A DNA stretch of 32,191 nucleotides from Rhizobium sp. Q54 (lineage in GTDB: Bacteria; Pseudomonadota; Alphaproteobacteria; SMXS01), in NCBI GenBank assembly GCA_945907245.1, contig CAMDTB010000037.1:1-32191 (forward strand). The letters run 5' to 3'. Both the position numbers and the translations under genes were made by a program. Shown here in pieces: positions 1 to 27,142 of this stretch (position 1 is its first letter; every line of letters begins with the position of its first letter). The notes under the pieces are model-generated. The model did not search any database. It worked only from the letters and a program-made list of their open reading frames with translations, and was not told the DNA's origin.

Positions 1-740
1 TGGTCGACGGCAGCACCCACATCGCCGGCCTCACCGACCAGACCGATGACGGAAAGCGCCTGCGCCGCGCCGTCGTCTTCGAGCATGTCGAGAAGCTGGC
101 CGCGCTCCACCGCATGGACTGGCAGGCCCACGGCTTCGGCGATTTCATCGACGCGCCGGCCACCCCGGCCCAGTCGCTCCGTACCGAGTTCGACATATGG
201 AAGAAGCTCTGGATCGCCGGCCGCAGCGAGCCCTTCCCGCTGATCACCGAGGTGCTCTACTGGCTGGAAGAGAACATCCCGACCGACACGCCCATGATCT
301 CGCTGGTCAAGGGCAACAACGGCGTCGGCGAGGAGATATGGCGGGACGGCAAGATCGTCGCCATGAGCGACTGGGAGCTCGCCTCCCTCGGCGACGGCGC
401 CCTCGACCTCGCCTTCTCCCAGGGCACACTGGCGCTCGACAATTTCGGCGACGCCATCCGCCACTACGAGCAGTGCGTCGGCCACGAGGTCTCGCCCCAC
501 CGCCTCGCCTTCTCGATGTTCTGGATCATGTTCAAGGCGCTCTGCTGCCTCAACGTCTATATGCTGGGCGGCTGGCTGCGCGGCAACCCGCGCCTGAACC
601 GCCCGGCCTTCGGTCTGGTCACCGTCAGGTCCTATGAACGGAAGCTGGCGGGCTGTCTCGGCAAGGACCTCGTCGATGCCTGGCGCGAGATCGCCGGCGA
701 CCAGGCCAGCACCTACGCCAAATTTGGCCAAGAGAAATGA
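1..740 (+). CDS. Phosphotransferase (APH/ChoK-like) family protein, 5' truncated by window edge
   Basis: The reading frame is open from base 3 and ends at the TGA at 738-740, so only the C-terminal part (about 245 residues) is visible. The segment MSDWELASLGD (codon DWE at about 369-377) followed by DLAF matches the metal-binding aspartate region of aminoglycoside-phosphotransferase-like proteins, including the ACAD10/11-type group often found beside acyl-CoA dehydrogenases. An LHRMDW segment sits at about 105-122. Oddly, the usual catalytic loop HGDxxxxN is replaced by VKGNNGVGEE (306-335): His, the catalytic Asp and the following Asn are all changed. Family membership is therefore secure, but kinase activity is doubtful. 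The stop is followed after 33 bases by the start of a small conserved protein, so the two are probably one operon. The substrate cannot be told from sequence. Confidence 0.85.
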   Translation, partial: VDGSTHIAGLTDQTDDGKRLRRAVVFEHVEKLAALHRMDWQAHGFGDFIDAPATPAQSLRTEFDIWKKLWIAGRSEPFPLITEVLYWLEENIPTDTPMISLVKGNNGVGEEIWRDGKIVAMSDWELASLGDGALDLAFSQGTLALDNFGDAIRHYEQCVGHEVSPHRLAFSMFWIMFKALCCLNVYMLGGWLRGNPRLNRPAFGLVTVRSYERKLAGCLGKDLVDAWREIAGDQASTYAKFGQEK

Positions 741-773
741 CTGGCCAACAGAAATGACTGGGGAGTGCAAGAA

Positions 774-1268
774 ATGATCCCGTCCTCCCGCGAGCTCCTT
801 GCCGGCATCGCCCGCACCCTCGAGAATGACGTGCTGCCCGAGCTGGCGGGCGCCACCTGGACGGCCAGTTCGATCCGCAGTTGCCTCACCCTCCTCGCCC
901 ATCTCGAGGAGCGCGTCGTCCACGAAGGCCGCATCCTCTACCAGGACAACGCCGACCTGCGCACCCTGCTCGGCCGATTGCGCACCGACCTGTCCGAGCC
1001 GCTGCCGGAAGCCGCAATCGGCATCTCGCTGGTGCTCGACGTGACAAGGCCGCCGTCCGGCTATCCGTCCGTCGAGGAACTGGACGCCACCAACCAGCGC
1101 CTAAAGGCGGTCCTTGAACAGACCATCACCGCCCTCCACGAGGGCCGCCGGACTCTGGGCGAGGACCGGTTCCAGGCGCTCAACGGCAGCATCCTCGTCC
1201 ATCTCGCCACCGCCGCCGAACGCGACAGCATCATGTTCGCGACGGCCGCCACCAAATCCCCGCTCTGA
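774..1268 (+). CDS. Small conserved protein, DUF6285-like, partner of the phosphotransferase
   Basis: This encodes 164 residues with no signal peptide or membrane segment, and predicted to be mostly helical. The N-terminal part (SRELLAGIARTLENDVLPEL, then an SSIRSCLTLLAHLEERV helix) resembles the small DUF6285-type proteins usually encoded next to APH-family phosphotransferases and acyl-CoA dehydrogenases; that assignment is from memory of the family. The ATG at 774 is chosen because GGGGAG at 760-765 lies about 8 bases upstream; an in-frame GTG at 765 would overlap that site. It starts 33 bases after the phosphotransferase stop, so the two are likely co-transcribed. Function is unknown; a role as an accessory or regulatory partner of the phosphotransferase is inference only. 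Confidence 0.75.
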   Translation: MIPSSRELLAGIARTLENDVLPELAGATWTASSIRSCLTLLAHLEERVVHEGRILYQDNADLRTLLGRLRTDLSEPLPEAAIGISLVLDVTRPPSGYPSVEELDATNQRLKAVLEQTITALHEGRRTLGEDRFQALNGSILVHLATAAERDSIMFATAATKSPL

Positions 1269-1397
1269 GTCCTTTCGCACATGTCCAGCGCGAAAAGGCA
1301 GGCTTGCCATCTCGGGCAGGCTCATTAACGTATCGGCAACAAAAAAGCGTCGACCCTAGGCGCTCCTAGTTCCGGCAACTCTGAAGGCCCATCCCCC

Positions 1398-2447
1398 ATG
1401 CCCACGCTTTTCGATCCTATCGACATCGGACCCCTCCGCCTGCCGAACCGCATCATCATGGCGCCGCTCACCCGCGCCCGCGCCGGCTCCAGCCGCGTCC
1501 CCAACGACCTGATGCGCGACTACTATGTCCAGCGCGCCTCCGCCGGCCTGATCCTCACCGAGGCCACCTCTGTCGAGCCCATGGGCGTCGGCTATGCCGA
1601 CACGCCCGGCATCTGGTCCGATGACCAGGTCGAGGGCTGGAAGCGCATCACCGCCGCGGTCCATGACGCCGGCGGCCGGATCGCCCTCCAGCTCTGGCAT
1701 GTGGGCCGCATATCCCATCCCATGTTCCTCGACGGCGACGAACCCGTCGCGCCCAGCGCCATCGCCGCCGAGGGCAGCGTCAGCCATGTGCGCCCGAAGG
1801 TGGCCTTCCCCACGCCCCGCGCGCTGGCGACCGGCGAGATCGCGGGCATCGTCGAGGCGTTCCGCAACGGCGCCCGCAACGCCGAGCGCGCCGGCTTCGA
1901 CGGCGTCGAGATCCACGGCGCCAATGGCTACCTGGTCGACCAGTTCCTCCAGACCGCCTCCAACCATCGCAACGACGGTTACGGCGGCTCCATCGAGAAC
2001 CGCGCCCGCCTGATGCTGGAAGTGGCCGACGCCGTCACCGGCGTCTGGGGCGCCGACCGTGTCGGCATGCACCTCGCCCCGCGCGGCGACGCCCATTCCA
2101 TGGGCGACGAGAACCCCGCCGCCACCTTTGGCTATGTGGCGACCGAGCTCGGCAAGCGCGGCCTCGCCTATCTCTGCGTCCGCGAATATGTCGGCGAGGA
2201 CCGCATCGGCCCGCAATTGAAGAACCAGTTCGGCGGCGTCTACATCGCCAACGAGCGCTTCACCTTCGAGACTGCCGAAGCCGCTCTCGCCGCCGGCGAA
2301 GCCGACGCCATCGCCTTCGGCCAGCTGTTCATCTCGAACCCGGACCTGCCCCGCCGCTTCGCCGAGAACGCCGCGTTCAACGAGCCCGACTTCAAGACGT
2401 TCTATTCCCACGGCGCCGAAGGCTACACCGACTACCCGGCACTGTAA
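1398..2447 (+). CDS. Alkene reductase, Old Yellow Enzyme family (NADH:flavin oxidoreductase)
   Basis: The 349-residue FMN-dependent ene-reductase forms a TIM barrel of normal family length. It begins with the typical LFDPIDIGPLRLPNRI; Thr25 (PLTR) matches the flavin-tuning threonine. QLWHVGR at 98-104 is the FMN-contacting stretch. The substrate-binding His173/Asn176 pair with Tyr178 lies in EIHGANGYL, and GYGGSIENR at about 194-202 is the family signature. The protein should reduce the activated C=C bond of enals, enones, maleimides or nitro compounds with NAD(P)H, in the cytoplasm. Its start has only a weak GAAGG about 11 bases upstream. The 129-base gap before it holds a short inverted repeat, CTAGG-CGCT-CCTAG at 1356-1369, a possible operator. 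It is probably transcribed alone. The substrate is unknown. Confidence 0.93.
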   Translation: MPTLFDPIDIGPLRLPNRIIMAPLTRARAGSSRVPNDLMRDYYVQRASAGLILTEATSVEPMGVGYADTPGIWSDDQVEGWKRITAAVHDAGGRIALQLWHVGRISHPMFLDGDEPVAPSAIAAEGSVSHVRPKVAFPTPRALATGEIAGIVEAFRNGARNAERAGFDGVEIHGANGYLVDQFLQTASNHRNDGYGGSIENRARLMLEVADAVTGVWGADRVGMHLAPRGDAHSMGDENPAATFGYVATELGKRGLAYLCVREYVGEDRIGPQLKNQFGGVYIANERFTFETAEAALAAGEADAIAFGQLFISNPDLPRRFAENAAFNEPDFKTFYSHGAEGYTDYPAL

Positions 2448-2528
2448 CGTGGCGGGCCAGGGTCCCTGCCACTATCGCGCGGCGGGTGTATAGTTCTGCG
2501 GATTGCTGTCTTCCAGCCTGTGGAGGCC

Positions 2529-3185
2529 CTAGAGCCAGGTCGATCCCTGGTTCATCGCCACCATGGGCACAAGGTCGGACTGCGCCAGCGGTTCCGGTTT
2601 TTCACGCCGGTTGTCCAGCGCCCACCAGACATGCTCGCCATTGTCCACGATCGATGCGATCACGATGGTGTGGGCCTGGTCGTCGGGCAGCCTGCCGTTC
2701 ACCACATGGACATGGTCCCGGTGCCAGCCGCCGCGGACCAGCGCCATGAACTTGGCGGTGGCAAAGCATTCGCAGTCGCCGCCATTGGCGATGAACTCCA
2801 CCGGCGTCGACCACCGGTCCGGCACATGGTAGTTCGTCCAGTCGGGCATATAGGGCACATTGTTGAAATGCCGGTGCACCGCATCGAGCGTCTCGAACCT
2901 TTCTCCGCCCTTCGCCAGTGCCACGCCCCGCTCCCAGAACGCGATCGCGTCCAGCGGAAAGCCCATGAACCCTTCCCGTTCCTGCTGCTGGAATCGCGAG
3001 ACCACGTTCGCCCAGTCGCCGGGAGGGTTCGGCACGGGCAGCGATGGCTGCAGGCCGCCGAACCCCGGCAGGTAGCCCGGCCCCGGTTGCGCCGCCGCCA
3101 TGCTGGCGAGGCCCGCGACCACGAGCGTCACCCACCACGTCGCGCGCTTGCACTGAAAGGACGCGGCAGTCCTCCCCTGAGACAT
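2529..3185 (-). CDS. Transglutaminase-like cysteine proteinase (BTLCP, peptidase C93 / DUF920 type), secreted
   Basis: This 218-residue protein has an N-terminal signal sequence (Lys/Arg-containing start, then TWWVTLVVAGLASMAAA) and should be exported. The catalytic triad of the bacterial transglutaminase-like cysteine proteinase family is visible: Cys138 in GGDCECFA, His172 in AHTIV and Asp191 in WALDN. In LapG, a member of this family, such a protease clips a surface adhesin under control of LapD, but no lapD- or lapA-like gene is visible here, so the target is unknown. The ATG at 3185 was chosen over an in-frame upstream start at 3251 because the signal peptide begins there and a GGGG stretch lies a few bases upstream. 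It is convergent with the ene-reductase and divergent from the MFS gene. Confidence 0.85.
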   Translation of the reverse strand: MSQGRTAASFQCKRATWWVTLVVAGLASMAAAQPGPGYLPGFGGLQPSLPVPNPPGDWANVVSRFQQQEREGFMGFPLDAIAFWERGVALAKGGERFETLDAVHRHFNNVPYMPDWTNYHVPDRWSTPVEFIANGGDCECFATAKFMALVRGGWHRDHVHVVNGRLPDDQAHTIVIASIVDNGEHVWWALDNRREKPEPLAQSDLVPMVAMNQGSTWL

Positions 3186-3403
3186 GAAAATCCCCGTCTG
3201 TGCTTGAGCCTTGATGCCTGTGGTTGGCTCGCTTGTCCGAGCCTGCCACATTTGGCGTCTGGCCGAAACCCAAACGGCAGCCCGCCCGGATCCCCGGCTT
3301 GTCCTTAACCTTGAGAGTGCGTCCCCATCGTTCTTTGTTACAGTAGGCGCGCGGCCGCTCCGACCGGAGGCGGTCAGGCAGCAGGCATGAGGAAAGATCG
3401 GTA

Positions 3404-5074
3404 GTGGCGACCAGTGACGACCAAGGCCTGTCCGGGCATCACGAGGCGACCCGCGACGACAGGCTCGTCATCGGCGCCTCGTCCCTCGGCACCGTCTTCG
3501 AATGGTATGACTTCTATCTCTACGGGCTGCTCGCCACCTCCATCTCGAAGGTGTTCTTCGCTGGCGTGAACGAAACCACCGGCTTCATCCTCGCCCTCGG
3601 CGCCTTCGCCGCGGGCTTCGCGGTGCGGCCGTTCGGCGCCCTGGTTTTCGGCCGGATCGGCGACCTGGTCGGGCGCAAATACACCTTTCTCGTCACCATG
3701 GCGATCATGGGCCTGTCGACCTTCGCGGTCGGCCTGCTCCCCGGCTATGACGCCATCGGCGTCGCCGCGCCGATCATCCTGGTGGTGCTGCGGCTGCTCC
3801 AGGGCCTCGCGCTGGGCGGCGAGTATGGCGGCGCGGCCACCTATGTCGCCGAGCACGCGCCGGAGGGCAAACGCGGGCTCTACACCAGCTTCATCCAGAC
3901 GACCGCCACCTTCGGGTTGTTCGCCGCGCTGCTGGTGGTCATCGGCTTCCGGGTCTGGCTTGGCGAGGAAGCCTTCGCCGCCTGGGGCTGGCGCCTGCCA
4001 TTCCTGGTTTCGATCATCCTTCTCGGCATTTCCCTCTGGATCCGCCTCAAGCTCGACGAGAGCCCCGTGTTCCGCAGGATGAAGGAATCCGGCACCACCT
4101 CGAAGGCCCCGCTCAGCGAAGCCTTCGGCCGGTGGAACAACCTAAAATTCGTTCTCATCTGCCTCTTCGGCGCCGTGGCCGGCCAAGCAGTCGTCTGGTA
4201 CGGCGGCCAGTTCTACGCCCAGTTCTATCTCGAGAAGACCCTCAAGGTCGACGGCGTCACCACCAACATCCTGGTGGCGACCGCCCTGCTGCTGGGCACG
4301 CCGTTCTTCATCTTCTTCGGCTGGCTCTCGGACCGGATCGGCCGCAAGTTCATCATCCTGGGCGGCTGCGCGCTCGCCGCGGCCACCTATTTCCCGGCCT
4401 TCCACCTGCTGTCGGTAGCAGCCAACCCGGCGCTGATCGCCGCCACCGAAAGCGCAGCGATCACCGTTTCGGCCGATCCGCGCGAATGCTCGTTCCAGTT
4501 CGACCCGGTGGGCAAGAACAGGTTCGACACGACCAGTTGCGACATCGCCAAGTCATGGCTCGCCAGGGCAGGCGTCAACTACCGCAACGTCGCTGCCCCG
4601 CCCGGCGCCGTCGCCTCGATTTCCATTGGCGCCCTCACGCTCGCCGCGCCCGACCCGGCAAGGATTTCAGGCGCCGAGCGGGCCGGCGCGATCAAGGCCT
4701 ATGGCGAGAGCATCGGCAAGGCGCTGGCCGACGCCGGCTATCCCGCAAAGGCCGATCCGGCCCGCATCGACAGGGTCGCGGTGGTCGCCGTGCTGTTCTA
4801 CCTCGTCCTGCTGGTGACCATGGTCTACGGCCCGATCGCCGCCATGCTGGTCGAGCTGTTCCCCAGCCGAATCCGCTACACGTCCATGTCGCTGCCCTAC
4901 CACATCGGCAATGGCTGGTTCGGCGGCTTCCTCCCCACCACCGCCTTCGCCATGGTCGCCGCGACAGGCAACATCTATTACGGCCTCTGGTATCCGGTCG
5001 TGGTAGCGGCCCTCACGGTCGTCGTCGGTCTGATCTTCCTCCCGGAAACCTTCCGCCGCAGGATCGATCAGTAG
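3404..5074 (+). CDS. MFS transporter, metabolite:H+ symporter (MHS) type, with a large periplasmic insertion
   Basis: The 556-residue inner-membrane transporter resembles ProP/KgtP/ShiA-type proton symporters. GTVFEWYDFYLYG (TM1, about 29-41), GRIGDLVGRK (TM2-3 loop, 83-92), RLLQGLALGGEYGG (TM4) and GWLSDRIGRK (TM8-9 loop, 306-315) are classic signatures. It is longer than the usual 430-450 residues because about 117 residues (340-456) separate TM9 from TM10. By topology that segment is periplasmic, and it contains two cysteines (C362, C379) that could form a disulfide. GTG at 3404 is the start, with GAGGAAAG about 8 bases upstream; no in-frame ATG precedes it. A five-codon ORF at 3387-3404 overlaps the start. 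The gene ends just before a strong hairpin terminator. The substrate is probably an organic acid or zwitterion, but this is not shown. Confidence 0.9.
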   Translation: MATSDDQGLSGHHEATRDDRLVIGASSLGTVFEWYDFYLYGLLATSISKVFFAGVNETTGFILALGAFAAGFAVRPFGALVFGRIGDLVGRKYTFLVTMAIMGLSTFAVGLLPGYDAIGVAAPIILVVLRLLQGLALGGEYGGAATYVAEHAPEGKRGLYTSFIQTTATFGLFAALLVVIGFRVWLGEEAFAAWGWRLPFLVSIILLGISLWIRLKLDESPVFRRMKESGTTSKAPLSEAFGRWNNLKFVLICLFGAVAGQAVVWYGGQFYAQFYLEKTLKVDGVTTNILVATALLLGTPFFIFFGWLSDRIGRKFIILGGCALAAATYFPAFHLLSVAANPALIAATESAAITVSADPRECSFQFDPVGKNRFDTTSCDIAKSWLARAGVNYRNVAAPPGAVASISIGALTLAAPDPARISGAERAGAIKAYGESIGKALADAGYPAKADPARIDRVAVVAVLFYLVLLVTMVYGPIAAMLVELFPSRIRYTSMSLPYHIGNGWFGGFLPTTAFAMVAATGNIYYGLWYPVVVAALTVVVGLIFLPETFRRRIDQ

Positions 5075-6404: not shown

Positions 6405-6750
6405 GCTCTGCTCCCGTTTGTTTCCCGGACTGTTCCGGAATAGGAATTCGGCCCCCAAACGGGGCGTTGCCGCAGTTAGAGCATGGCCCGCGCGTCGCTT
6501 CCAGTGGAATTTACCGGCCGGGAACGTGCTTTTGGCCAGGCCGGATCATGATGTCGGCGCGGCCACGCCAGACGCCCCGCCGGCGCTTTCAGCCAGGGTG
6601 GAATGGCCGCGCCGCCCGAAAGTCGCGGCGACAAACCGCGGAGCGGTCCAGCCGCGGCTGAAACCGCTCTAGCCAAACCCTGTCACGCAACCTTATGCTT
6701 TTACAGGCGCTTATTCGAGGCAACCTCGACACAGGTGGAGAGGACGTGCC
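6405..6750. other. Intergenic region with palindromic repeats between divergent genes
   Basis: This 346-base stretch has no credible gene. It should hold promoters for the thiolase (-) and the membrane protein (+). Visible structures are TTCCGGAA at 6433-6440, the hairpin CGCGG/CCGCG at 6624-6640, and a cruciform-like repeat at 6641-6669. No -10/-35 pair is clear enough to call. Confidence 0.6.
6641..6669. repeat. Nested palindrome (possible dispersed intergenic repeat)
   Basis: The arms GAGCGGT (6641-6647) and ACCGCTC (6663-6669) enclose a perfect 12-base palindrome, CAGCCGCGGCTG (6649-6660). It is followed by TAG, giving the GCTCTAG edge often seen in dispersed palindromic elements of alphaproteobacteria; that comparison is from memory. 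A second hairpin (6624-6640) precedes it directly. Confidence 0.5.
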
Positions 6751-7290
6751 ATGGCATCCGAAACGATCGACCTTCTCTCGCCGTACCGGCCCGAGGAATG
6801 CGCCCGGCGGCTGCGGATGGTGACCGATCCGGGCCGGCGCCAGCGCAACAGCAACCCGCTTATCGGCGTCATCACCGACACCACGCTGCGGCTCAGGCGC
6901 CGTCTCGCCTACCGCAACTCGTTCCAGACCTTCCTGTTCGCCACCATGGAAGGTGAAGAGAAAGGCACCCGCCTGCGGTGCCGCTTCGGCATGCATCCCG
7001 TGGCGGTCGGCTTCCTGGTCGTGTGGTTCTGCTTCGTGATCGTCGGTCTGGGCGTCGGCCTCACCGTGGCGTTCGACCTGTTCGGCATCGATCACGGAAT
7101 CGATCGGCCGCTCTGGCCTGCCGCGGTCGTGCCTGTCCTCATGGCCGTCTTCGCGCTGTTCTGGCTGAAATTTTCCCGCCGCCTCGCCGACGAAGACGAG
7201 TTGTTCATGATCGAGTTGTTCCGCTTCAGCCTCGATGCGGAACTGACGCCCGAATCGGCGGCGCGCCGCGCGGCCGAACAGCCGCGCTGA
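6751..7290 (+). CDS. Hypothetical inner-membrane protein with two transmembrane segments
   Basis: This encodes 179 residues. The cytoplasmic-looking N-terminal region (1-80, rich in Arg) is followed by two hydrophobic segments at about 84-110 and 121-140, then an acidic helical tail. A good ribosome site, GGAGAGG, lies about 8 bases before the ATG. I do not recognise the family. Layout and length resemble small two-TM proteins whose soluble part precedes the membrane hairpin. It faces the MDR oxidoreductase convergently, with only 19 bases between stops. No function can be assigned. Confidence 0.75.
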   Translation: MASETIDLLSPYRPEECARRLRMVTDPGRRQRNSNPLIGVITDTTLRLRRRLAYRNSFQTFLFATMEGEEKGTRLRCRFGMHPVAVGFLVVWFCFVIVGLGVGLTVAFDLFGIDHGIDRPLWPAAVVPVLMAVFALFWLKFSRRLADEDELFMIELFRFSLDAELTPESAARRAAEQPR

Positions 7291-7309
7291 CGCCCCGCCC
7301 CCCGTTCGG

Positions 7310-8338
7310 TCAGGCCGGATCGGCGACCTTCAGGATGGTCTTGCCCTTGTTCTTGCCGGTGAACAGGCCTTGCAGCGCCGCCGGCGCGTTCTCGAGGCCC
7401 TCGGAAAGCGTCTCGTGCACCTTCAGCTTGCCTTCCTTCAACCACTTGCCGATGTCGGCGATGGCCTGCGGGAACTTGTGCGCATAGTTGAACAGCAGGA
7501 AACCCTCCATCCGCGCGCTTTTCAGGATCAGGAACAGGTAGTTCTTCGGCCCGTCCGGCATCCCCCAGCCCGAATAGCCCGAGGCGATGCCGCCGCAGAT
7601 CGCGACCCGCGCGCCCTGCGCCAGGTTGGCCAGCGCCGCGTCGAGGATCGGCCCGCCCGTGTTGTCGTAGAACACGTTGACCCCGTCGGGCGCGAGCTCG
7701 CGCAGCTTGGCCGCCATGTCGTCGTTCTTGTAGTCGATGGCCGCGTCGCAGGCGCCTTCCTCGACCACCCACTTGCACTTGTCAGGGCCGCCCGCCACGC
7801 CGATCACCTTGCTGGCGCCGCGTATCTTGGCGATCTCGGCCACCGCCGAGCCCGTCGCGCCCGCCGCGCCCGAGATCAGCACCACGTCGCCTTCCTTCAC
7901 CTGACCCACTTCCTGCAGGCCGAAATAGGCGGTCAGCGTGGTGATCCCGAACACCGAGAACGCCCAGGTCAGCGGATAGTCGCGCGACACCGTCTGCAGC
8001 GGCATCAGGCCCGTGCCGTTCTTCAGCACCGCATAGTCCTGCCACGGCATCATGCCGTTGACGATGTCGCCTTCCTTGAACGCCGGATCGTTCGACTTGA
8101 TCACCTGGCCCAGTCCGGACCCGAACATCGGCGCGCCGATCTTCACCGGGTCCATGTAGCCCGGGCCCTCGTTCAGCCAGCCGCGCTGGGTCGGATCGAA
8201 CGACAGGTACAGGGTCTTCACCAGGATTTCACCCGGCCCCGGATCGGCAACGCTTGTGGTCTTGAGATCGAAATGCTCAGGCCCCACCAGTCCAGGCGGA
8301 CGCGACTTCAAAACCCACTGACGGCTCTCTTTGCTCAT
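7310..8338 (-). CDS. NADP-dependent oxidoreductase, zinc-independent MDR family (CurA / leukotriene B4 dehydrogenase-like)
   Basis: The 342-residue medium-chain reductase is close to normal length. Its N-terminal ESRQWVLKSRPPGL start and YLSFDPTQRGWL motif are typical of the CurA/prostaglandin-reductase branch, which reduces C=C bonds of enones using NADPH. The nucleotide-binding glycine motif is SGAAGATGS at 156-164, followed by KVIGVAGGPDKC, which should contact the NADPH phosphate. No zinc-binding cysteine cluster is present. The ATG at 8338 is preferred because AAAGGGAT lies about 9 bases upstream; an in-frame ATG at 8347 would sit directly on that site. With the ene-reductase at 1398 it is the second enone-reducing enzyme in the window, consistent with metabolism of unsaturated ketones (inference). 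Confidence 0.92.
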   Translation of the reverse strand: MSKESRQWVLKSRPPGLVGPEHFDLKTTSVADPGPGEILVKTLYLSFDPTQRGWLNEGPGYMDPVKIGAPMFGSGLGQVIKSNDPAFKEGDIVNGMMPWQDYAVLKNGTGLMPLQTVSRDYPLTWAFSVFGITTLTAYFGLQEVGQVKEGDVVLISGAAGATGSAVAEIAKIRGASKVIGVAGGPDKCKWVVEEGACDAAIDYKNDDMAAKLRELAPDGVNVFYDNTGGPILDAALANLAQGARVAICGGIASGYSGWGMPDGPKNYLFLILKSARMEGFLLFNYAHKFPQAIADIGKWLKEGKLKVHETLSEGLENAPAALQGLFTGKNKGKTILKVADPA

Positions 8339-8649
8339 GACGTGCATCCCTTTGATATTCTTCGGCGCCGATCTCGATTGTCGGCACGCTCCGGGCCGAA
8401 CCATAAGCAGGCCCGCGCGCCATTGCCAGCCCGCCATTTTACGGCGCCGCGCCCATCCGGATCATGGAGTGTCGGTAGTTTCGTAATTTCGGTGACGCTT
8501 TACTTGATTCGCCGCGCCTGGCCCCGCCGTCGAAGCGGCAATTTGCCGAACCGCCGGCCATCGATTAGCATCCGCACCGCACCCGCGCGTCGCCGCTTGA
8601 ACGGACCATCGGCCGCGTCTCGAACGCCAGCAGGAGAAGGGAATTTCCC
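8339..8649. promoter_or_regulatory. Divergent intergenic region with a small operator-like palindrome
   Basis: These 311 bases separate the MDR reductase (-) from the VOC/methyltransferase pair (+). No gene is seen. CGGCAA-T-TTGCCG at 8536-8548 is a perfect 6-bp inverted repeat around one base and could be a repressor site. GC drops around 8470-8520, where the promoter of the (+) genes may lie, but no convincing -35/-10 pair stands out. Confidence 0.4.
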
Positions 8650-9096
8650 ATGCGACAGACACAAGCCTTGGAAGTGGGCATACCGGTGGTCGACCTCGAC
8701 CGGATGTATGCGTTCTACACCCAGGTGATGTCCTGCACGGAAGCGCGCCGTGCCGACATTCCGGCCTCGCTCAGCAGCAGCCTCGGCGTCGCGCCCGATG
8801 GCTACATCAACATCTGGCTGACGACGCCGGGCAACGAGGTGATCAAGCTGGTGCGCACCCCCGTCCCGTCGGTCATCCCGCCCACCCCCGAATGGATGGC
8901 CGCCCGCACTGGCATCGCCTACCTCACCTTCTATTGCAGCGACCTCGACACGACCCTCGCGGCCGCCGAAGCCGCCGGCGCGGTGCTGAAATCCGACCGC
9001 GCCCTGATCGCCAAGGACCGGCCCTTGCGCCTCTGCTTCTTCGCCGACCCGGAAGGCAACATCATCGAACTGGTGGAAATTGCCGGGCAGGGCTGA
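8650..9096 (+). CDS. VOC family protein (glyoxalase/dioxygenase fold)
   Basis: This 148-residue cytoplasmic protein has the two beta-alpha-beta-beta-beta modules of the vicinal-oxygen-chelate fold. The first module starts at VGIPVVDLDRMYAFYTQVM and the second at ITGIAYLTFYCSDLDTT-like sequence, ending in FFADPEGNIIELVEI, whose Glu is the usual C-terminal metal ligand. An AGGAGAAGGG ribosome site lies about 8 bases upstream. The reaction cannot be predicted; members isomerise, epimerise, cleave rings or bind drugs. The stop codon directly abuts the ATG of the methyltransferase (TGA|ATG), so the two are translationally coupled. Confidence 0.88.
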   Translation: MRQTQALEVGIPVVDLDRMYAFYTQVMSCTEARRADIPASLSSSLGVAPDGYINIWLTTPGNEVIKLVRTPVPSVIPPTPEWMAARTGIAYLTFYCSDLDTTLAAAEAAGAVLKSDRALIAKDRPLRLCFFADPEGNIIELVEIAGQG

Positions 9097-9720
9097 ATGA
9101 CGCCGGATAACCGGAAAACCCACTGGCAAGGCGTCTACAGGACCAAGGCTGCCGACACTGTAAGTTGGTATCAACCTTCGCCGCTACCTTCGCTGGAGAT
9201 GGTGGCGGCATCAGACATCGATCCCTCGGCCCGAGTCGTTGACATTGGCGCGGGCGCATCGAGTTTTGTCGATGCCCTCCTGGATCGGGGTTTCACGCGG
9301 ATCACCGTTCTGGATATAGCGGAGGCGGCTCTCGATGTTGCCCGCGCCAGGCAGGGAGCGCGGGCGACCCTGGTCGATTGGACGGTCGCCGATGTAAGGA
9401 GCTGGCAACCGGGGCACATTTACGACCTTTGGCATGACCGTGCCGTGTTCCACTTTCTGACCGACGCGACCGACCGTGCCGCGTACAAGGCCACCATGAC
9501 GGCGGCACTCCCTCAGGGCGGCATGGCCATACTCGCGACGTTCGCCGAGGATGGGCCGGAAAGATGCAGTGGACTCCCCGTTAGACGATACAGCGCGGCT
9601 GATCTGGTCGCCGAACTGGGGGAAAACTTCAGCCTGGTTGTCCACAAGAAAGAAAAGCACCTCACACCGGCAGGTGCGGAACAGTCCTTTACCTGGGCGC
9701 TATTTCGCCGAGATCGGTAA
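9097..9720 (+). CDS. Class I SAM-dependent methyltransferase
   Basis: The 207-residue protein has a Rossmann-type methyltransferase fold. Motif I is VVDIGAGAS (47-55), the acidic end of beta-2 is Asp73 in VLDIAEAAL, and DLWHDRAVFHFL (110-121) is a strong signature of a widespread small group annotated as trans-aconitate- or thiopurine-methyltransferase-like. The C-terminal segment with FAEDGPERCSGL and RYSAADL also fits that group. The true substrate of these enzymes is generally unknown. It starts immediately after the VOC gene stop with no gap and no separate ribosome site, so it depends on coupling. Codon use is visibly less GC-rich at third positions than its neighbours, which may mean later acquisition. 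Confidence 0.88.
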   Translation: MTPDNRKTHWQGVYRTKAADTVSWYQPSPLPSLEMVAASDIDPSARVVDIGAGASSFVDALLDRGFTRITVLDIAEAALDVARARQGARATLVDWTVADVRSWQPGHIYDLWHDRAVFHFLTDATDRAAYKATMTAALPQGGMAILATFAEDGPERCSGLPVRRYSAADLVAELGENFSLVVHKKEKHLTPAGAEQSFTWALFRRDR

Positions 9721-9821
9721 CATACTGACGTTTACGGTCTTGCCAAACCTCCGGCCAGTCCCCCACTCTCCTGATCGGCCGACCAAGTGGCGGCAAGGAA
9801 GTACACGAATAGGGGATTCCG

Positions 9822-10169
9822 ATGACCATCATTATCGCAGGCTGGATCGACCTGGACGTCGAAGACGTGACGGACGTCATCGCCACCGCCAAGGCGCATA
9901 TCGAAGGCGCCTACACCGAGAACGGCTGCGTCCACTACATCTGGACCAAGGACGTCTTCGTCCCCGGCCGCATCCATGTCTATGAGGAATGGGTCGACAC
10001 CGCCGACCTGCAGTATCACTTCGACAATCACTGGTACAAGGACATGGGCGGCCACCTCCGCAAGTTCCCGCGCAAGGGCTCGCAGATCCGCAAGTTCCGC
10101 GTCGATCACATCGAGCCGGTGTACGACCCGTCTGGCACCCCGCGCGCCGACTTCTTCACCGCCAAATAG
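9822..10169 (+). CDS. Antibiotic biosynthesis monooxygenase (ABM) domain protein
   Basis: The 115-residue ferredoxin-like alpha/beta barrel protein is of the ABM/quinol-monooxygenase type. It begins IIIAGWIDLDVEDVTDV, with the Asn/Cys-containing ENGCVHYIWTKD strand and the VYEEWVDTADLQYHF segment that correspond to the usual EP-GC and E-W-x-H positions of the family. These small dimeric proteins oxidise quinols or aromatic substrates without cofactor, or bind hydrophobic ligands; the activity here is unproven. An AGGGGATT ribosome site lies about 5-10 bases before the ATG. It sits 26 bases before the next VOC gene, which has its own site; the two are probably an operon. Confidence 0.87.
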   Translation: MTIIIAGWIDLDVEDVTDVIATAKAHIEGAYTENGCVHYIWTKDVFVPGRIHVYEEWVDTADLQYHFDNHWYKDMGGHLRKFPRKGSQIRKFRVDHIEPVYDPSGTPRADFFTAK

Positions 10170-10195
10170 CTCACCTGAAAGTAACGGAGGCCGTC

Positions 10196-10738
10196 ATGGC
10201 CCTGCCGCAATACCAGGTCATCCAGAACGCCTATCTGGTCAACGACGTGGACGAGGCGGTCCGCCGCCTCACCCGTCAGGCCGGCTATGGTCCCTGGTTG
10301 ATGCTCCGTCATGTGGAGTTGCCGCGCGTCTGGTACCGCGGCCAGCCGGCCATCGTCGACATGTCCGCCGCCTTCACCATGGCCGGCGAGGTGCAGATCG
10401 AGCTGATCCAGCAGCACAATGACGACCAGTCCTGCTACCGCGACATCTACCCCAAGGGAAAGCAGGGCTTCCACCACACCGCCATGTTCGTGCCCGACTA
10501 CGAGGAAGCCTACGCCGCGTTCGAGGCCGCCGGCTGCCCCTGCGCCCAGCTCTTCGAACTGCCCGACGGCGGTGTGGCCGCCTATATGGACACCAGCGCC
10601 GTCAACGGCCACATGATCGAAATCTACAAGGAATCGGCGGGGATTCGCGCGCTCTACACCACGGTGCGCGAGTTCGCCGCGACCCACCCCCGCGACACCG
10701 TCATGGACGGCGGCACCGTCGCCAGCATCATGACTTAG
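10196..10738 (+). CDS. VOC family protein (glyoxalase-like)
   Basis: The 180-residue vicinal-oxygen-chelate protein has its first module at QNAYLVNDVDEAVRRL and its second at GFHHTAMFVPDYEEAYAAF, ending with GHMIEIYKES. The second-module His and the C-terminal Glu of a metal site are present, but the usual first-module His is replaced (QNAYLV), as in a subgroup related to methylmalonyl-CoA epimerase and found in catabolic clusters. A strong CGGAGG lies 6 bases before the ATG at 10196, which fixes the start; the open frame further upstream overlaps the ABM gene and is not coding. It probably forms an operon with the ABM gene. Confidence 0.88.
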   Translation: MALPQYQVIQNAYLVNDVDEAVRRLTRQAGYGPWLMLRHVELPRVWYRGQPAIVDMSAAFTMAGEVQIELIQQHNDDQSCYRDIYPKGKQGFHHTAMFVPDYEEAYAAFEAAGCPCAQLFELPDGGVAAYMDTSAVNGHMIEIYKESAGIRALYTTVREFAATHPRDTVMDGGTVASIMT

Positions 10739-10748
10739 GGGAAGAGGA

Positions 10749-10820
10749 TCAGGGTTCTACCCGGGTCTGGCCCGCGATCATCTCGTCCTGCTTGATGAGA
10801 TTGTCCACGAAACCATCCAT
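10749..10820 (-). pseudogene. Possible 23-codon gene remnant coupled to the acyl-CoA dehydrogenase
   Basis: The acyl-CoA dehydrogenase stop TAA overlaps an ATG (TAATG at 10818-10822) that opens a 23-residue frame, MDGFVDNLIKQDEMIAGQTR followed by VEP, and then stops. The composition is protein-like (acidic/basic helix), and the overlapping arrangement is typical of operon partners. It could be the surviving 5' end of a deleted downstream gene or a chance frame. I do not recognise the product. Confidence 0.3.
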
Positions 10821-11983
10821 TACGCCCCCGCCGCCGCCCGCTTCATGGTCATGCGCGCGATGGTCACTTGGTGGATCTGGCTGGCGCCCTCGTACAGCCG
10901 GAACGGCCGAACGTCGCGGTAGAACCGCTCGATGCAGCTGTAGTCGGCGATATAGCCCGAGCCGCCGAAAATCTGCACCGCGCGGTCGGCGACTCGGCCG
11001 CACATCTCGGTCGCGAAGTACTTCGACATGGACGCTTCCATGCTCGTGTCCTCGCCCCGGTCGCGCTTGCGCGCCGTCTCCATGATCAACGCCTTCGCCG
11101 CGTGAATTTCGGTTTGGCAGTCGGCGATCAATCCCTGCACCAACTGGAACTCGCCGATGGGCTGGCCAAACTGCTTGCGGGTCATGGCATGCCGCACCGC
11201 CTCGTCCAGCATCCGGATCGCCGGCCCCGTCGACAGCGCCGCCAGGTGAAGCCGCTGCTTGTTCAGCACCTTCATCGTCGTCTTGAAGCCCACGTTCTCG
11301 ACGCCGCCGATCAGCGCGTCCGACGGAATGCGGCAGTCCTCGAAATACACCTCGGAGACCGGCGCGCCTTCCTGGCCCATCTTCCGGTAGGGCGCGCCCG
11401 TGCGCAGGCCCGGCGAATCCCGCTCGACGAAGAACGCGCTCACGCCGCCCGCGCCCGGATCGCTCTCGTCCGTCCGCGCCATCACCGTGAACAGATCGGC
11501 GACCGGCGCGTTGGTGATGAACGCCTTCTTGCCATTGAGCACATAGCCATTGCCGTCCCGCCGCGCCGTCGTCTTCAGCGCCGTCAGGTCCGATCCCGCG
11601 TCTGGCTCGGTCGCCGCCAGGCAGCCGATCAGTTCGCCCTTTGCCATCTTCGGCAGGTATTTCTTCTTCTGCTCCGGCGTGCCGTCGGCGACCAGCGCCT
11701 CCGAGCCGATGCCCGTGTTGGTGCCCACATGGGCACGGAACGCCACCGAGCACTGCGAAATCTCCAGCGCGCCCAGCACAAGCTCCTCCGCCGTCAGGCC
11801 CGCGCCGCCATACTCCTCGGGAATGCTCCAGCCGAAGAACCCCTTGCGCGCCATCTCCGCCGAGATGTCCTTGGGCATGTATTCGCCCTGCGCCACGCGC
11901 TCCTCGTTGGGGATGGCGTAGCTCCGGACCCACTCGCGCACGTCGGCGAGGAAGGCCTCGAAGGCTTCCGGGTTCCTGATCAT
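10820..11983 (-). CDS. Acyl-CoA dehydrogenase
   Basis: The 387-residue FAD-dependent dehydrogenase introduces the alpha,beta double bond into an acyl-CoA thioester. The N-terminal helices, GWSIPEEYGGAGL, ATEPDAGSDL (FAD/substrate binding), GKKAFITNA, RKQFGQPIGEFQLVQ and QIFGGSGYIADYSCIERFYRD are in canonical order. The catalytic base is Glu365 in LYEGASQI. The length is normal for the short/medium/branched-chain class; substrate chain length cannot be read by eye. GCGGAGA lies about 7 bases before the ATG. The start overlaps the stop of the broken regulator frame (ATGA), so it was once coupled to it. It is probably now expressed without that regulator. Confidence 0.95.
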   Translation of the reverse strand: MIRNPEAFEAFLADVREWVRSYAIPNEERVAQGEYMPKDISAEMARKGFFGWSIPEEYGGAGLTAEELVLGALEISQCSVAFRAHVGTNTGIGSEALVADGTPEQKKKYLPKMAKGELIGCLAATEPDAGSDLTALKTTARRDGNGYVLNGKKAFITNAPVADLFTVMARTDESDPGAGGVSAFFVERDSPGLRTGAPYRKMGQEGAPVSEVYFEDCRIPSDALIGGVENVGFKTTMKVLNKQRLHLAALSTGPAIRMLDEAVRHAMTRKQFGQPIGEFQLVQGLIADCQTEIHAAKALIMETARKRDRGEDTSMEASMSKYFATEMCGRVADRAVQIFGGSGYIADYSCIERFYRDVRPFRLYEGASQIHQVTIARMTMKRAAAGA

Positions 11984-12503
11984 ATGCTGTCTCCGCTCTG
12001 TTCGCTGGACGCCATGTCTTCGGGCAGCCGCAGCTTGCTCAACTGGTTGCCGATCACCTTGCCCAGATGCTTCAGCCGCTCCGGCGGATTGCGGAACGCG
12101 GGCATCATCAGCCCCATCACGCCCCGCGCCCGACCGCCCTCGTCGCGGATCACCGCCGCCACCGCCGACGCGCCCTCGATGCGCTCACCCGTCGACGTGG
12201 CATAGCCTCTCGCCCGCCCGGCCCTGCCGCCGCCCACAGCTTCAGGATGTCGAGTGGCAGCCCCAGCCCGTCCGGCTCCGCGGCACCGCGCGGCGAATAG
12301 CGCTTGTCAGGCCGCCGGTTGACGAAGCCGTGCCCTTCCAGCGTGGACAGGATGCGGAACACCACCGGCACCGGCTCGCCGAGCGCGGCGGCGATTTCTG
12401 TTTGAGAAAGTGGCGAGCCCGCGCCCTCCAGCAGGCGCATGGTCTAGAGCGCCCGGGAGACGGTCTGCAACTGATAGGAAGTCTGCGATGCCGCTGTTGC
12501 CAT
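11980..12503 (-). pseudogene. Broken IclR-family transcriptional regulator
   Basis: An IclR-type start at 12503 reads MATAASQTSYQLQTVSRAL and then hits a TAG at 12444-12446. The next residues (TMRLLEGAGSPLSQTEIAAA) continue the winged-helix domain, so one CAG-to-TAG change explains the stop. The DNA-binding half runs to about 12260 (VVFRILSTLEGHGFVNRRPDKRY is obvious). The end of the effector domain (RGYATSTGERIEGASAVAAV through PERLKHLGKVIGNQLSKLRL) lies in a different frame at 11980-12237. Total coding space is about 174 codons against about 250 normally, so roughly 80-100 residues of the effector domain are missing at the junction. A nonsense codon, internal deletion and frameshift together make this a pseudogene. 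Confidence 0.85.
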
Positions 12504-12593
12504 GAAGCCGCTAGAATCACCCGGTGCGCTGGACCGTCAACAGAGATTTCTCTCGGCGGAACATTCAATTCACCACAATTCTCCAAATAGAAA

Positions 12594-16998
<4,405 letters not shown>

Positions 16999-17000
16999 GA

Positions 17001-18236
17001 TCATAACTCCCCGTCGGCGGCGGACATGGTCCAGCGCCCTGTAAGCCGATCGATGACCGCCTGTGCCTCATGGAATTTCTTCAGCGCGGCGATCTCTCGC
17101 GCCTTGAGCTCGACCAGCGCGCGCTGGGTGTCGGCCACCTCCAGATAGACGAACGCCCCGCGGTCGTACCCGTCCCGCGCACTCCTCGCGGCGTCTCCCG
17201 CACGCGGCAGCATGTCGTCTCGGATCGCCGCCACTTCCACCCTTGCCGACGCCTGCTGCGCCCGCGCCGCCCGCAGGGCCGCCGCGTGCCTGCGCTGGTC
17301 CTCCGCTAGCAGCCACTGCGCCTGCTGGCGCTCCGCCATCGCCCGGTCGATATTGCCCCGGTTCTTGTCGAAGAACGCCAGCGGCATGGAGAACGACAGC
17401 ACCCCGGCGACGTCGCCGCCATCCTCGAAGCGGCGCATGCCGACGCCGATGGTCGGGTCCGATTTCGTCCGCACCTTCTCCAGCTCGAATGATTTCCCGG
17501 CCCGCTCGATCCGCGCCTTGCTGACCGCCAGGTCCGGCCCATGCCCTCCGTCCGGCCGATCCGCCATCAGGAAGAAAGCGCTGCCATCAACGTCGATGGC
17601 AGGCGCGTCCTCGCCCAACTGTGCCGCCAGCGCCGCACGGGCCGCGTCGAGTTGCAGTCCCGCCTGCATCACGGCCGTTCGCGCGTCGGCCACCTGATTG
17701 TCCGCCTTCAGGCCGGCTGCCAGCGGGTCGCGGGCGGCCTTCACCCGCCGCTGGACGATGGCCGCCATATCCTCGGCCAGCCGCAGGCGGTCGGCCGCGT
17801 TGCCGGACGCCGCCTCGGCTTCCAGCACCGCGTTCCATGCCTGCTGGGTCTCGAACGCCACCTCGGCCGCCGACTTGCGCCGCTCCAGCCGGGCGATGCC
17901 CCGGTCCGACTCCGCCAGCGCCACCCGCGCCCGGCGCTTGCCGCCGCGCTCCAGCGTCTGCCGGTAGGTGACCGTCGTCTCGGTCGATCCGAAGTCGGAA
18001 TAGGGTCCGCTGCCGGTGAAGTTCTCGACCTCCACCTCCAGCTCGGGATTGGGCCGTGCCCGGGCCTGATCAATACCGGCGCCGGACGCGGTGATTGCCG
18101 CCTCCCCTGCATTGAGCAGGGGTGACGCATCGAGGCTGCGCGCGATGGCATCCTCCAGCGTCAGCGATGACGCGGCGACGGCCGGGCTGATCGCCCAGCC
18201 CATGGCGGCCATGGCCGCCAGAACGGTGATACGCAT
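17001..18236 (-). CDS. TolC-family outer membrane channel, CzcC-like
   Basis: The 411-residue outer-membrane protein has a Sec signal peptide (MRITVLAAMAAMGWAISPAVA). Two long coiled-coil helical regions typical of TolC/CzcC channels follow: LTLEDAIARSLDASPLLNAGEAAI with QARARPNPELEVEVENF, and RQQAQWLLAEDQRRHAAALR with YDRGAFVYLEVADTQRALVE. Its role is the outer-membrane exit duct of the metal pump. A GAGAGA ribosome site lies about 6 bases before the ATG at 18236. Its TGA lies within the adaptor's start region, indicating tight coupling. Substrate range follows the pump rather than this subunit. Confidence 0.92.
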   Translation of the reverse strand: MRITVLAAMAAMGWAISPAVAASSLTLEDAIARSLDASPLLNAGEAAITASGAGIDQARARPNPELEVEVENFTGSGPYSDFGSTETTVTYRQTLERGGKRRARVALAESDRGIARLERRKSAAEVAFETQQAWNAVLEAEAASGNAADRLRLAEDMAAIVQRRVKAARDPLAAGLKADNQVADARTAVMQAGLQLDAARAALAAQLGEDAPAIDVDGSAFFLMADRPDGGHGPDLAVSKARIERAGKSFELEKVRTKSDPTIGVGMRRFEDGGDVAGVLSFSMPLAFFDKNRGNIDRAMAERQQAQWLLAEDQRRHAAALRAARAQQASARVEVAAIRDDMLPRAGDAARSARDGYDRGAFVYLEVADTQRALVELKAREIAALKKFHEAQAVIDRLTGRWTMSAADGEL

Positions 18237-18299
18237 ATTGATCTCTCTCGATGACAGGAAAGCGCCCACGCGTGGACGCCCAACGCTATCCGCAAGAGA

Positions 18300-24601: not shown

Positions 24602-27142
24602 TCAGAACTGCGCGCCCAGCTCCACACCCCAGCTCCAGCCCGGACCGACAGTGCCGGCCGCGAACAGCGGCTGGATGATGTTCGGCGCCTCGAACCGTTC
24701 GTTGGTCAGGTTGCGGCCGTACATCGACACCCGGTACTTGTCCCAGGCGTAGCTGATCGACGCGCTCACGTCGTCGCGCGGCGGGGACTGGCTCAGCGTC
24801 GCGTTGAGCAGGTTGCCCTCGCTCTTGCTGGTGTGGCTCCATTTGACGTTGAAGCTCAGGTCACCGGGTCCGATCGTGACCGTGTAGGTGCCGCCCAGGC
24901 CAGAGGTCAACTTGGGCGCGTTACGGGGCGTCAGGTAGGACGCATCGACAATGCATTCCGGCCTGCCGGAGCAGGTGTCGTTCGGATTGACGTCGGTGAA
25001 GAAGTCCTTGTACGTGGCGTCCAGCAGGCCGAGCGATCCGAAAATGCTGAAGTTTTCAGTCACGGCGGCCTGCATTTCGATCTCGACGCCCTTGTAGATC
25101 ACGTTCGCCACGTTGGAGAACACGGTGGCGACCGTGTTGGTTGAGTCATCGAACTGCACCGCCTGTTCCTGCTTGTTCTTGAAGGTGTTGTGGAACAGGG
25201 CGATGTTGGTCTGCAACCGGTTGTCGAACCACTGGGCCTTCATACCGATTTCCCACGACCGCGACGTCTCGGGGTCATACTGGTCGCGCTCGAAGTCGGC
25301 CACGTTCTGGTTCACGCCGAAGAAACCGCCCGAGTGCCAGCCCGTTGCGAACGTGCCATACACCAGGACATCGTCCATCGCCTTCCAGGACAGGCCAACC
25401 TTGGGCGAGATGTCCGTCCAGCTGTTCTTGAGGTCGGCGAAATCGGGATAGTTGAACTCGTAGGCCCGGTCGACCGGCGCCAGATAGGCCTGGGCCGCCA
25501 CGAAGTGCTTCTTCTCGTGGGTCCAGCGAACGCCCGCTTCCACCGTCACGCCGGGCAGGAACTCCCAGTCCGCATGCGCGTATACCGACGTTGCCTTGGT
25601 CTTCTGGTCCTCGTACAGCTTCTGCACCAGCTTCTCGCCGTAAGGCGCGTCGCCTGCGAGGGTGTCGCAGCGGACATTGCCAAACCGCAGGGCAAGACAG
25701 GCGCCGACCGGCGTGAAGCCCGGATGCGCCGCCGCGGCCCCTGGATTGAGCCAGGTGTTGGACGCCAGCGAGTAACCGCTGAGCGCGCCGATGAAGGTCC
25801 AGAAGTCGCCGCCAGTCACCCAATTCTGGTTGAAGTCGCTGTACCAGTTGTAGAAGCCGAGGTGGCCCTTGATCTTGCCCATCGACGTATCCCAGTTGCC
25901 TTCCAGCCGGAGTTCGCCGCTGAACTGTTCGTATGTATTGTCGCGCTCGATGGTGATGTGGTCGACCTCGGTACCGTCGAAGTCAACTTTGCGGTATTCC
26001 TTCATGGAGCGGTAGCCGAGCAGCGAAGCCAGCCTGAGTTCGTCGCTGAACTCGTAGGACGAGTCCAGGGTGAAGGCCGTCGTCCGCACACGCCCGGGGT
26101 TGGGCAGGTCGGTCGAGATGGTCTTCTTCGGGAACGGGACCGTGGTCCGGCACGGCACGCTCGGAACCGCGCTGATCAGGCCAGGCAGGAAGCACGACAG
26201 GAAGCCCCCCGCGTAATTCGGATCTTCCGGCCGGGCGGTCGGCGGTAACACGCCCGGCGCGAAGTTCCAGTTGGTCAGGAAGGCGCCGCCCTGGGTGTCG
26301 TCCTCATATCGTTCAATGGTCAGCAAGGACGTGAACCGGTCGTTCGGCGTCGCGAGCAGGGTGATGCCGTAGTTCATGTATTCGCGCTGCGGCTGCCGCT
26401 CTTCACGAAATTCGTTGTAGTACCAGCCCTTGCTGTTCAGCGAGGTGAAGAAGCCCTTCGCGGCCAGCTTGTCCTGGACCACCGGGATGTTGATCACGCC
26501 GCGGAACTCGTGCGTGTCCCAACGACCATAGGTGTACTGAAGCTTGGCGCCCCACTCGCCGGTCGGCCGGCTGCGGACCGCGTTCAGCACGCCGCCTACC
26601 GTATTGCGGCCGTACAGGGTGCCCTGCGGGCCGCGCAGGATTTCAATGCGCTCGATGTCGAAATTCTCCAGAACCTGTCCGGACAGCGAGCCCAGGTAGA
26701 TGCCGTCAATCATGATCGCGATCGGCGAATCGAACGAGTTGTCGTCCGTGCGGGTCGGGCTGATGCCGCGGATCGTGACATTGGCGGCGCTGGCGCGCGA
26801 CGGATCGGAGTCGATGCGCACGTTGGCCGAATAGCCGTTCAGATCCCTCAGGTCCTTGACCGAGGCCAGTTCCAGTTCCGCGCTGATCGCCGTCATCGCG
26901 ACCGGCACGTCCTGGGCTGCCTCTTCGGTCTTGCGCGCCGTAACCAGCACGGAATCGACGCGCGGCCCCGACTTGGGCGCCTGGGCGAGCTGCTCGCCAG
27001 TGACTGCGGCCACCGGCGCGGGCGCCTCGCGTTCAGTCTGCGCCGAGGCGGCTCCGAATGGCAGCAATAGAGATGGTAGTGCGAGCGCGGCCGTTCTGAC
27101 GGAACGCGCCAATTTGGCAGGCAGCAAAGGCCCATGAAGCAT
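24602..27142 (-). CDS. TonB-dependent outer membrane receptor
   Basis: The 846-residue receptor has a signal peptide (SVRTAALALPSLLLPFGAASA). The TonB box region is VDSVLVTARKTEE. The plug domain includes DLNGYSANVRI, RTDDNSFDSPIAIMIDGIYL, FDIERIEILRGPQGTLYG and RNTVGGVLNAVRSRPTG. The beta-barrel continues to a C-terminal aromatic residue (GVELGAQF). It imports a large or scarce substrate across the outer membrane, energised by TonB-ExbBD. Sequence type resembles receptors in sphingomonad-like hydrocarbon and steroid degraders. Short loops with paired cysteines appear near 26145-26195, 25665-25700 and 24955-24975. GGGGAGGA lies 7-8 bases before the ATG at 27142. It is a paralogue of the next gene, in the same orientation, but has its own leader and terminator, so the two are separate transcripts. 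Confidence 0.95.
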   Translation of the reverse strand: MLHGPLLPAKLARSVRTAALALPSLLLPFGAASAQTEREAPAPVAAVTGEQLAQAPKSGPRVDSVLVTARKTEEAAQDVPVAMTAISAELELASVKDLRDLNGYSANVRIDSDPSRASAANVTIRGISPTRTDDNSFDSPIAIMIDGIYLGSLSGQVLENFDIERIEILRGPQGTLYGRNTVGGVLNAVRSRPTGEWGAKLQYTYGRWDTHEFRGVINIPVVQDKLAAKGFFTSLNSKGWYYNEFREERQPQREYMNYGITLLATPNDRFTSLLTIERYEDDTQGGAFLTNWNFAPGVLPPTARPEDPNYAGGFLSCFLPGLISAVPSVPCRTTVPFPKKTISTDLPNPGRVRTTAFTLDSSYEFSDELRLASLLGYRSMKEYRKVDFDGTEVDHITIERDNTYEQFSGELRLEGNWDTSMGKIKGHLGFYNWYSDFNQNWVTGGDFWTFIGALSGYSLASNTWLNPGAAAAHPGFTPVGACLALRFGNVRCDTLAGDAPYGEKLVQKLYEDQKTKATSVYAHADWEFLPGVTVEAGVRWTHEKKHFVAAQAYLAPVDRAYEFNYPDFADLKNSWTDISPKVGLSWKAMDDVLVYGTFATGWHSGGFFGVNQNVADFERDQYDPETSRSWEIGMKAQWFDNRLQTNIALFHNTFKNKQEQAVQFDDSTNTVATVFSNVANVIYKGVEIEMQAAVTENFSIFGSLGLLDATYKDFFTDVNPNDTCSGRPECIVDASYLTPRNAPKLTSGLGGTYTVTIGPGDLSFNVKWSHTSKSEGNLLNATLSQSPPRDDVSASISYAWDKYRVSMYGRNLTNERFEAPNIIQPLFAAGTVGPGWSWGVELGAQF

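Follow-up and report, generated by a model that had tools for sequence, protein, structure and literature searches.

What does a protein of the APH-like kinase fold do once the catalytic loop of that fold has been replaced? The question is raised by the first gene of a contig of Rhizobium sp. Q54 (GenBank assembly GCA_945907245.1, contig CAMDTB010000037.1, C37 of the assembly). The analysed stretch of 32,191 nucleotides, referred to below as the window, starts at the first base of this contig. By alignment to homologues, the open reading frame at its very start encodes an APH/ACAD11-type kinase-fold protein, which reads KGNNGVGE in place of the HGDxxxxN loop. The APH-family catalytic loop is missing, with K-G-N/T...E instead, in all twelve proteins of this kind that were found; they are called KG proteins here, and kinases with the intact loop are called HGD kinases. 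Because the loop is replaced by fixed residues, usually beside the same partner genes, the function of the KG clade is probably not that of the related phosphorylating proteins. Most likely, as far as sequence can tell, the KG protein is no longer a hydroxyl kinase.

The frame (frame 3) is uninterrupted from base 3 up to a stop codon at 738–740 and yields 245 amino acids (aa) with an open 5' end. They correspond to residues 113–357 of the 358-aa orthologue in genome G003, that is, to the C-terminal two thirds of the protein; since the contig begins inside the window gene, everything said below on the N-lobe comes from relatives. The motif region translates exactly to VKGNNGVGEEIWRDGKIVAMSDWE, the same span as in the first-pass annotation, which had been made from the letters of the window and had claimed that the catalytic His, Asp and Asn of an APH/ACAD10-11-like protein are all replaced, with DWE kept. 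Translation and alignment bear this out. A Lys codon (309–311) occupies the His place of HGDxxxxN, an Asn codon (315–317) the place of the catalytic Asp, and a Glu codon (330–332) the place of the metal Asn; DWE is situated at 369–377, with its Asp (369–371) retained. The segment aligns on the HGD or WGDxxxxN...DWE of 3dxp, ACAD11 (8v3v) and 3ats, and no standard HGDxxxxN loop, for which the same annotation had suggested looking, was seen elsewhere in the window protein in the alignments inspected. The best PDB sequence match of the 245-residue fragment is 3dxp (1.6e-10), followed by 3ats, 9o56 and ACAD11; profile alignment of the same region gives 2.9e-17 for 3dxp, 3.1e-16 for ACAD11 8v3v and 3.7e-12 for 3ats/3att. 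The APH (PF01636) score of the fragment, 13.7 bits, is under the gathering cut-off of 23.2 bits, and those of the full-length proteins, 29.0 bits for the G003 orthologue and 36.2 bits for a paralogue in genome G006, are over it.

In the alignment of the twelve, all KG proteins read KG[NT]NGxGEE...SDWE, with Asn in seven and Thr in five at the catalytic-Asp column. All twelve lack the metal Asn and the catalytic Asp as well as the HRD-type His, and all retain the DWE Asp. Invariant positions make up 16 of 31 within residues 213–243, whereas outside this segment they number 31 of 327 (Fisher p 5e-8). The G003 protein and the G006 paralogue are identical at 22 of 26 loop and DWE positions versus 37% overall (hypergeometric p 3.4e-7). 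Five HGD kinases with an overall identity of 28–33% match the HGD reference L166 at 19–23 of these 26 positions, and four other HGD pairs (24–27% overall) match at 14–18, whereas KG and HGD rows match each other at only 8–13. Judging from these matches, conservation of the old active site reaches roughly the level expected of an active site, but towards a different consensus. The 11 KG members covering these N-lobe positions all share G37, S39, R40, T42, R59 and E75. By alignment, G37/S39/R40/T42 are placed in the Gly loop, R59 at the beta-3 Arg and E75 at the alpha-C Glu.

A loop conserved like an active site, together with retained nucleotide-side residues, may be read as a sign of new chemistry in the cleft of the kinase fold. 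Lys, Asn, Glu-Glu and Ser-Asp-Trp-Glu, as a fixed set, would form a working site for an ATP-dependent reaction different from hydroxyl phosphorylation, for example AMP or acyl transfer or phosphate elimination. There are precedents on the kinase fold, namely SelO, which lacks the same Asp (E. coli loop HGVMNTDN) and is reported to AMPylate, and SidJ, reported to catalyse glutamylation (PMC12599244, PMC3281104). However, SelO as described retains the metal Asn (PMC3281104), where the KG proteins have Glu, and the loop could be fixed through binding alone. The PDB sequence matches listed for the KG queries include no chain of SelO or SidJ. We regard this explanation as possible, although rather unlikely.

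The frame is not only open, as had been claimed, but also maintained, with purifying selection seen in the ratio of nonsynonymous to synonymous substitution rates (dN/dS). Among the KG orthologues it is 0.065–0.22 at dS 0.3–0.7, and in close KG pairs of a second family, introduced below, it is 0.068–0.20; values between deep branches are near saturation and were left out. The neighbouring old yellow enzyme (OYE) and Rv3169-family genes have similar values, 0.095–0.28. Three KG operons (L190–L192) also contain an HGD kinase, and there the KG genes have dN/dS of 0.068–0.12 versus 0.22–0.32 for the kinase of the same operon; in the L191/L192 pair the KG proteins are 89% identical with dN/dS 0.068, and the kinases 72% identical with 0.225. 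Across the whole clade the KG active site is rewritten rather than eroded, and where an intact kinase stands alongside, the KG protein is kept tighter. One might suspect decay, a frameshift or an assembly error in a dying gene, as the contig edge truncates the window gene and no Rv3169-family partner for it turned up in the assembly. With twelve open frames bearing the same motif in two families, low dN/dS at dS 0.3 and more, and full-length orthologues in three assemblies, such an origin has practically no chance of being true.

The twelve KG proteins comprise four orthologues and one deep paralogue in the genus of the window, and seven proteins in a second family of the class (f13). Within the genus, the gene is present in four of seven genomes (G000, G003, G005, G006). 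The identity to the window protein is 96% in G003, 93% in G005 and 80% in G006, and all three orthologues carry the identical KGNNGVGEE, so the loop change is not a quirk of one strain. G006 also encodes the paralogue, with 37–40% identity and the loop KGTNGYGEE. The one TGA inside the match in G006:C59 has the coordinates of the stop codon of the gene itself, the match running across it. The seven genes of f13 come from five of 249 genomes, where nine matches were obtained at E 1e-30 and all were inspected; because of them the idea that the motif is confined to the genus was dropped. Hence the conserved atypical subfamily envisaged by the first-pass annotation exists as twelve homologues across two families of the class, all with a small adjoining gene.

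The distribution rests on a sample of genomes rather than a census, with ten genomes from the order of the window. An even draw of 385 genomes of the class gave 54 matches at E 1e-20, the top five candidates per genome being scored, and no further KG member outside the genus was seen in the 30 of 54 loci inspected. In another class of the phylum (that of G404), 331 genomes gave ten matches at E 1e-30, with no KG and two proteins of the HGA type described below; in a third class (that of G391), none of 48 genomes matched at E 1e-30. Three scans of viral contigs yielded no KG relative. Three scans of plasmids matched 38, 27 and 19 of 72,556 records, all at less than 60% identity, and the four kinases in three plasmid loci inspected all retain the catalytic Asp. 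A degenerate DNA pattern applied to 398 genomes of the phylum had three matches, one of which is the window; the other two are due to chance, lying in frames that encode 37 and 152 residues and bear no likeness to kinases. The KG clade is rare in the genomes sampled, yet not private to the genus. No report of this subfamily was found in the open-access literature searched.

To place the clade, a 64-row set was assembled. It retains from a first broad set only the five KG rows together with L003, L004, L010, L018 and L026, and leaves out the rest, the DUF-fused kinases L041–L045 included, and fragments shorter than 200 residues except L176/L224. The catalytic Asp is present in 48 rows; the 16 rows lacking it are the 12 KG proteins and four proteins which we call HGA, having Ala for Asp with the metal Asn and DWE kept. 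At the metal-Asn column, the 12 KG rows have Glu and the remaining 52 have Asn, and the DWE Asp is kept in 64/64. In the tree, all KG proteins group together in a single clade (support 100/99) with a stem length of 1.0 change per site, inside the Asp-bearing kinases, and the HGA proteins form a separate clade (100/100). An earlier 67-row tree with five KG rows likewise gave a KG clade (100/99). Their places in the tree suggest that KG and HGA lost the Asp separately, although a tree joining the two is not rejected by the approximately unbiased test (p-AU 0.188).

The HGA clade comes from four genomes in two classes, and its Asp-to-Ala change is of the same kind as in the kinase-dead ACAD11 mutant discussed below. 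A gene matching the Rv3169-like profile is found near all four HGA genes. Three of them are adjoined by a gene weakly matching the small-partner profile (15–25 bits), the fourth being at a contig end, and a CoA-ligase-like frame (CoA, coenzyme A) was noted by eye near three. The dN/dS values among three HGA genes are 0.09–0.18. Further changes of the loop were seen in DUF-fused kinases: the one at L045 2949–4502, from a neighbouring genus, reads HGSVSFDR...TDWE, with Ser for Asp and Arg for Asn, and that of L043 misses the metal Asn.

The gene neighbourhood is as constant as the loop in one respect: the small gene adjoins 12/12 KG genes. The first-pass annotation had called it DUF6285-like, and while the pairing holds, the family assignment does so only in part. 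The small proteins of the window, L038 and L040 have no match to PF19802 (DUF6285) in scans to E 10 and E 1. Their Pfam matches, far under the cut-off, are to DUF6415 (E 0.68, 0.12) and, for the partner of the paralogue, to a phage-sheath domain (E 0.22). Against genuine DUF6285 genes, hhalign gives a probability of 73–82% over about 70 residues, versus 0.2% for a reversed profile and at most 1.8% for 50 column shuffles; with the N-terminal parts of fused HGD kinases the probability is 27%. The G003 orthologue of the small protein is predicted to be all-helical with a mean predicted local distance difference test (pLDDT) score of 77.4, and a search of the PDB with this model gave no match, the best E being 0.94. 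The true DUF6285 gene of the window's genome is on contig C11, next to an HGD kinase of the ordinary kind. This locus (L204 431–1429 and following) looks like an ordinary LvaABC-like set, with the kinase (HGDFRNGN), the DUF6285 gene and, by eye, an acyl-CoA dehydrogenase-like frame on the opposite strand.

An Rv3169-family gene adjoins 10 of the 12 KG genes and lies directly upstream in the orthologues. Its products score 299.7 bits (L037) and 222.6 bits (L040) with NCBIfam NF053593, the cut-off being 150 bits. In the window this gene would lie beyond the contig edge, and there is no match elsewhere in the assembly; in L196 there is no such gene within 9 kb around the KG gene. Members of the family occur in 41 of 376 genomes of the class at E 1e-6, many with an adjoining kinase, so that the pairing is a common one; of the kinases found beside them, the ones lacking the Asp belong to KG and HGA. 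In L190–L192 the gene order is Rv3169-family gene, KG gene, small gene and HGD kinase. An enoyl-CoA hydratase gene comes next after the operon in L191 (by Pfam) and in L190 (by eye), and genes for acyl-CoA dehydrogenase, thiolase, CoA ligase and an HpcH/HpaI lyase are found close by in L191; the functions of neighbours were assigned partly by eye.

We propose, with a probability of roughly 0.45, that the KG protein binds nucleotide as a subunit whose site has been repurposed, and that it acts on CoA esters jointly with its small partner and the protein of the Rv3169 family. The phosphotransfer site of an APH/LvaA-type fold would have been rebuilt into a fixed binding site. The N-lobe would still hold a nucleotide via the kept Gly loop, beta-3 Arg and alpha-C Glu, and a metal would be held by the kept DWE Asp and the new Glu at the Asn place. 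Lacking the catalytic Asp, the KG protein would phosphorylate no hydroxyl; from the missing Asp alone, the KG proteins are predicted to be pseudokinases. With its DUF6285-like partner it may bind a CoA ester or a partner enzyme, which might be presented to, or gated for, the Rv3169-family protein of the adjoining gene, and in three operons the neighbouring HGD kinase could carry out phosphorylation.

The same retained residues, the Gly loop, beta-3 Arg, alpha-C Glu and DWE Asp, are also compatible with a small-molecule kinase still at work, in which one of the two new Glu residues, or the substrate itself, replaces the base; ErbB3, with Asn for Asp, is reported to have residual activity (PMC3281104). 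In ACAD11, as reported, the catalytic Asp contacts the substrate hydroxyl in modelling and is hydrogen-bonded by the Asn, and its change to Ala abolishes the kinase activity of ACAD10/11 (PMC12440821). In the KG proteins, moreover, the base, His and metal Asn are all altered together, and in three operons a second kinase is present whose HGDxxxxN loop is intact. A working kinase is improbable.

Several observations weigh against a nucleotide-binding subunit as well. The AlphaFold prediction of the kinase-fold protein is of low confidence (mean pLDDT 36.9, three sequences), and the likeness of the small partner to DUF6285 is remote, with that to the fused-kinase N-terminal parts weaker still. 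Just 3/12 operons contain an HGD kinase that could be regulated. For a mere scaffold there is no obvious need to fix seven polar or charged residues at the former active site. Finally, a changed Asp need not mean a binding role, as the weak kinase activity kept by ErbB3 (PMC3281104) and the other chemistry acquired by SelO and SidJ (PMC3281104, PMC12599244) indicate.

Among known systems, the KG proteins resemble ACAD11 and LvaA in that the same region is aligned by profile and a kinase-fold protein is encoded with a small partner near CoA-ester genes, but ACAD11 has Asp220 and Asn225 where the KG proteins have Asn or Thr and Glu, with Lys for His. LvaB itself is presumably a DUF6285 protein. 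The likeness to LvaA/LvaB is drawn from the reported gene arrangement rather than from sequence comparison, and the KG loci add an Rv3169-family gene; LvaB is reported to bind LvaA, and growth on levulinate to need both genes (PMC6692424, reporting Rand et al. 2017). The Rv3168–Rv3169 operon of M. tuberculosis (PMC5340868) and its alphaproteobacterial counterparts share with the KG loci a kinase gene beside an Rv3169-family gene. The structure 3ats retains WGDxxxxN, unlike the KG proteins. We take 3ats to be Rv3168.

By analogy, the closest precedents are SelO, SidJ and the pseudokinases among the bacterial spore kinases (BSK). The latter, grouped with APH and choline kinase, are reported to have lost the catalytic Asp several times, and a non-catalytic function has been proposed (PMC2860764); they share this loss with the KG proteins, whose loop is re-fixed as a single new motif. 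The HpeHI two-component kinase was ruled out as a relative, being an ATP-grasp system.

Tentatively, and with less confidence than for the nucleotide-binding subunit, the KG proteins and perhaps HGA may be seen as non-phosphorylating enzymes or subunits of CoA-ester catabolism. An LvaA/Rv3168-type system of kinase, small partner and Rv3169-family protein would have given up phosphorylation, perhaps twice, for a new ATP-dependent reaction or a nucleotide-gated substrate hand-over to the Rv3169-family protein. Such proteins tend to be annotated 'phosphotransferase family protein' regardless of their ability to phosphorylate. The compact three-gene set offers a way of examining what a kinase fold can be used for once its catalytic Asp is gone, and bears on the roles of the Rv3169 family, named after the M. 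tuberculosis gene, and of the DUF6285-like partners.

Table 1. Coordinates of the features in the window and in the compared loci
Locus	Feature	Position	Strand	Basis or remark
Window	KG-type kinase-fold protein (APH/ACAD11/LvaA-like), 5'-truncated by contig start	3..740	+	ORF (open reading frame), homologue alignment
Window	Rewritten catalytic loop and metal motif, VKGNNGVGEEIWRDGKIVAMSDWE	306..377	+	Translation, alignment
Window	Small partner protein, 164 aa	774..1268	+	Remotely DUF6285-like; in-frame GTG start also at 765
Window	Old yellow enzyme (Oxidored_FMN), gene next downstream	1398..2447	+	Domain match
L221	HGA protein	6631-7881	-	Loop HGAYRTGN; only catalytic Asp changed (Ala)
L222	HGA protein	7435-8568	-	HGAYRTGN
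L224	HGA protein	8917-9489	-	HGAYRTGN
L225	HGA protein	8131-9504	-	HGAYRTGN
L037	Phage-tail-like frames	871-3786		By eye
L038	imuB/dnaE2-like frames	1-3150		By eye
L039	Phage-tail-like and imuB/dnaE2-like frames	9727-13868		By eye

OYE genes are found near six of the 12 KG genes (the window, L037, L038, L039, L193 and L196), and the orthologues in L037–L039 are 81–96% identical to that of the window. Near the KG operon, phage-tail-like frames were noted by eye in L037 and L039, and imuB/dnaE2-like frames in L038 and L039. Farther along the window, inspection by eye suggests a heavy-metal resistance-nodulation-division (RND) efflux-like cluster at 12594–18269, and two TonB-receptor-like frames and a P450-like frame at 24602–29976 and 30231–31568.
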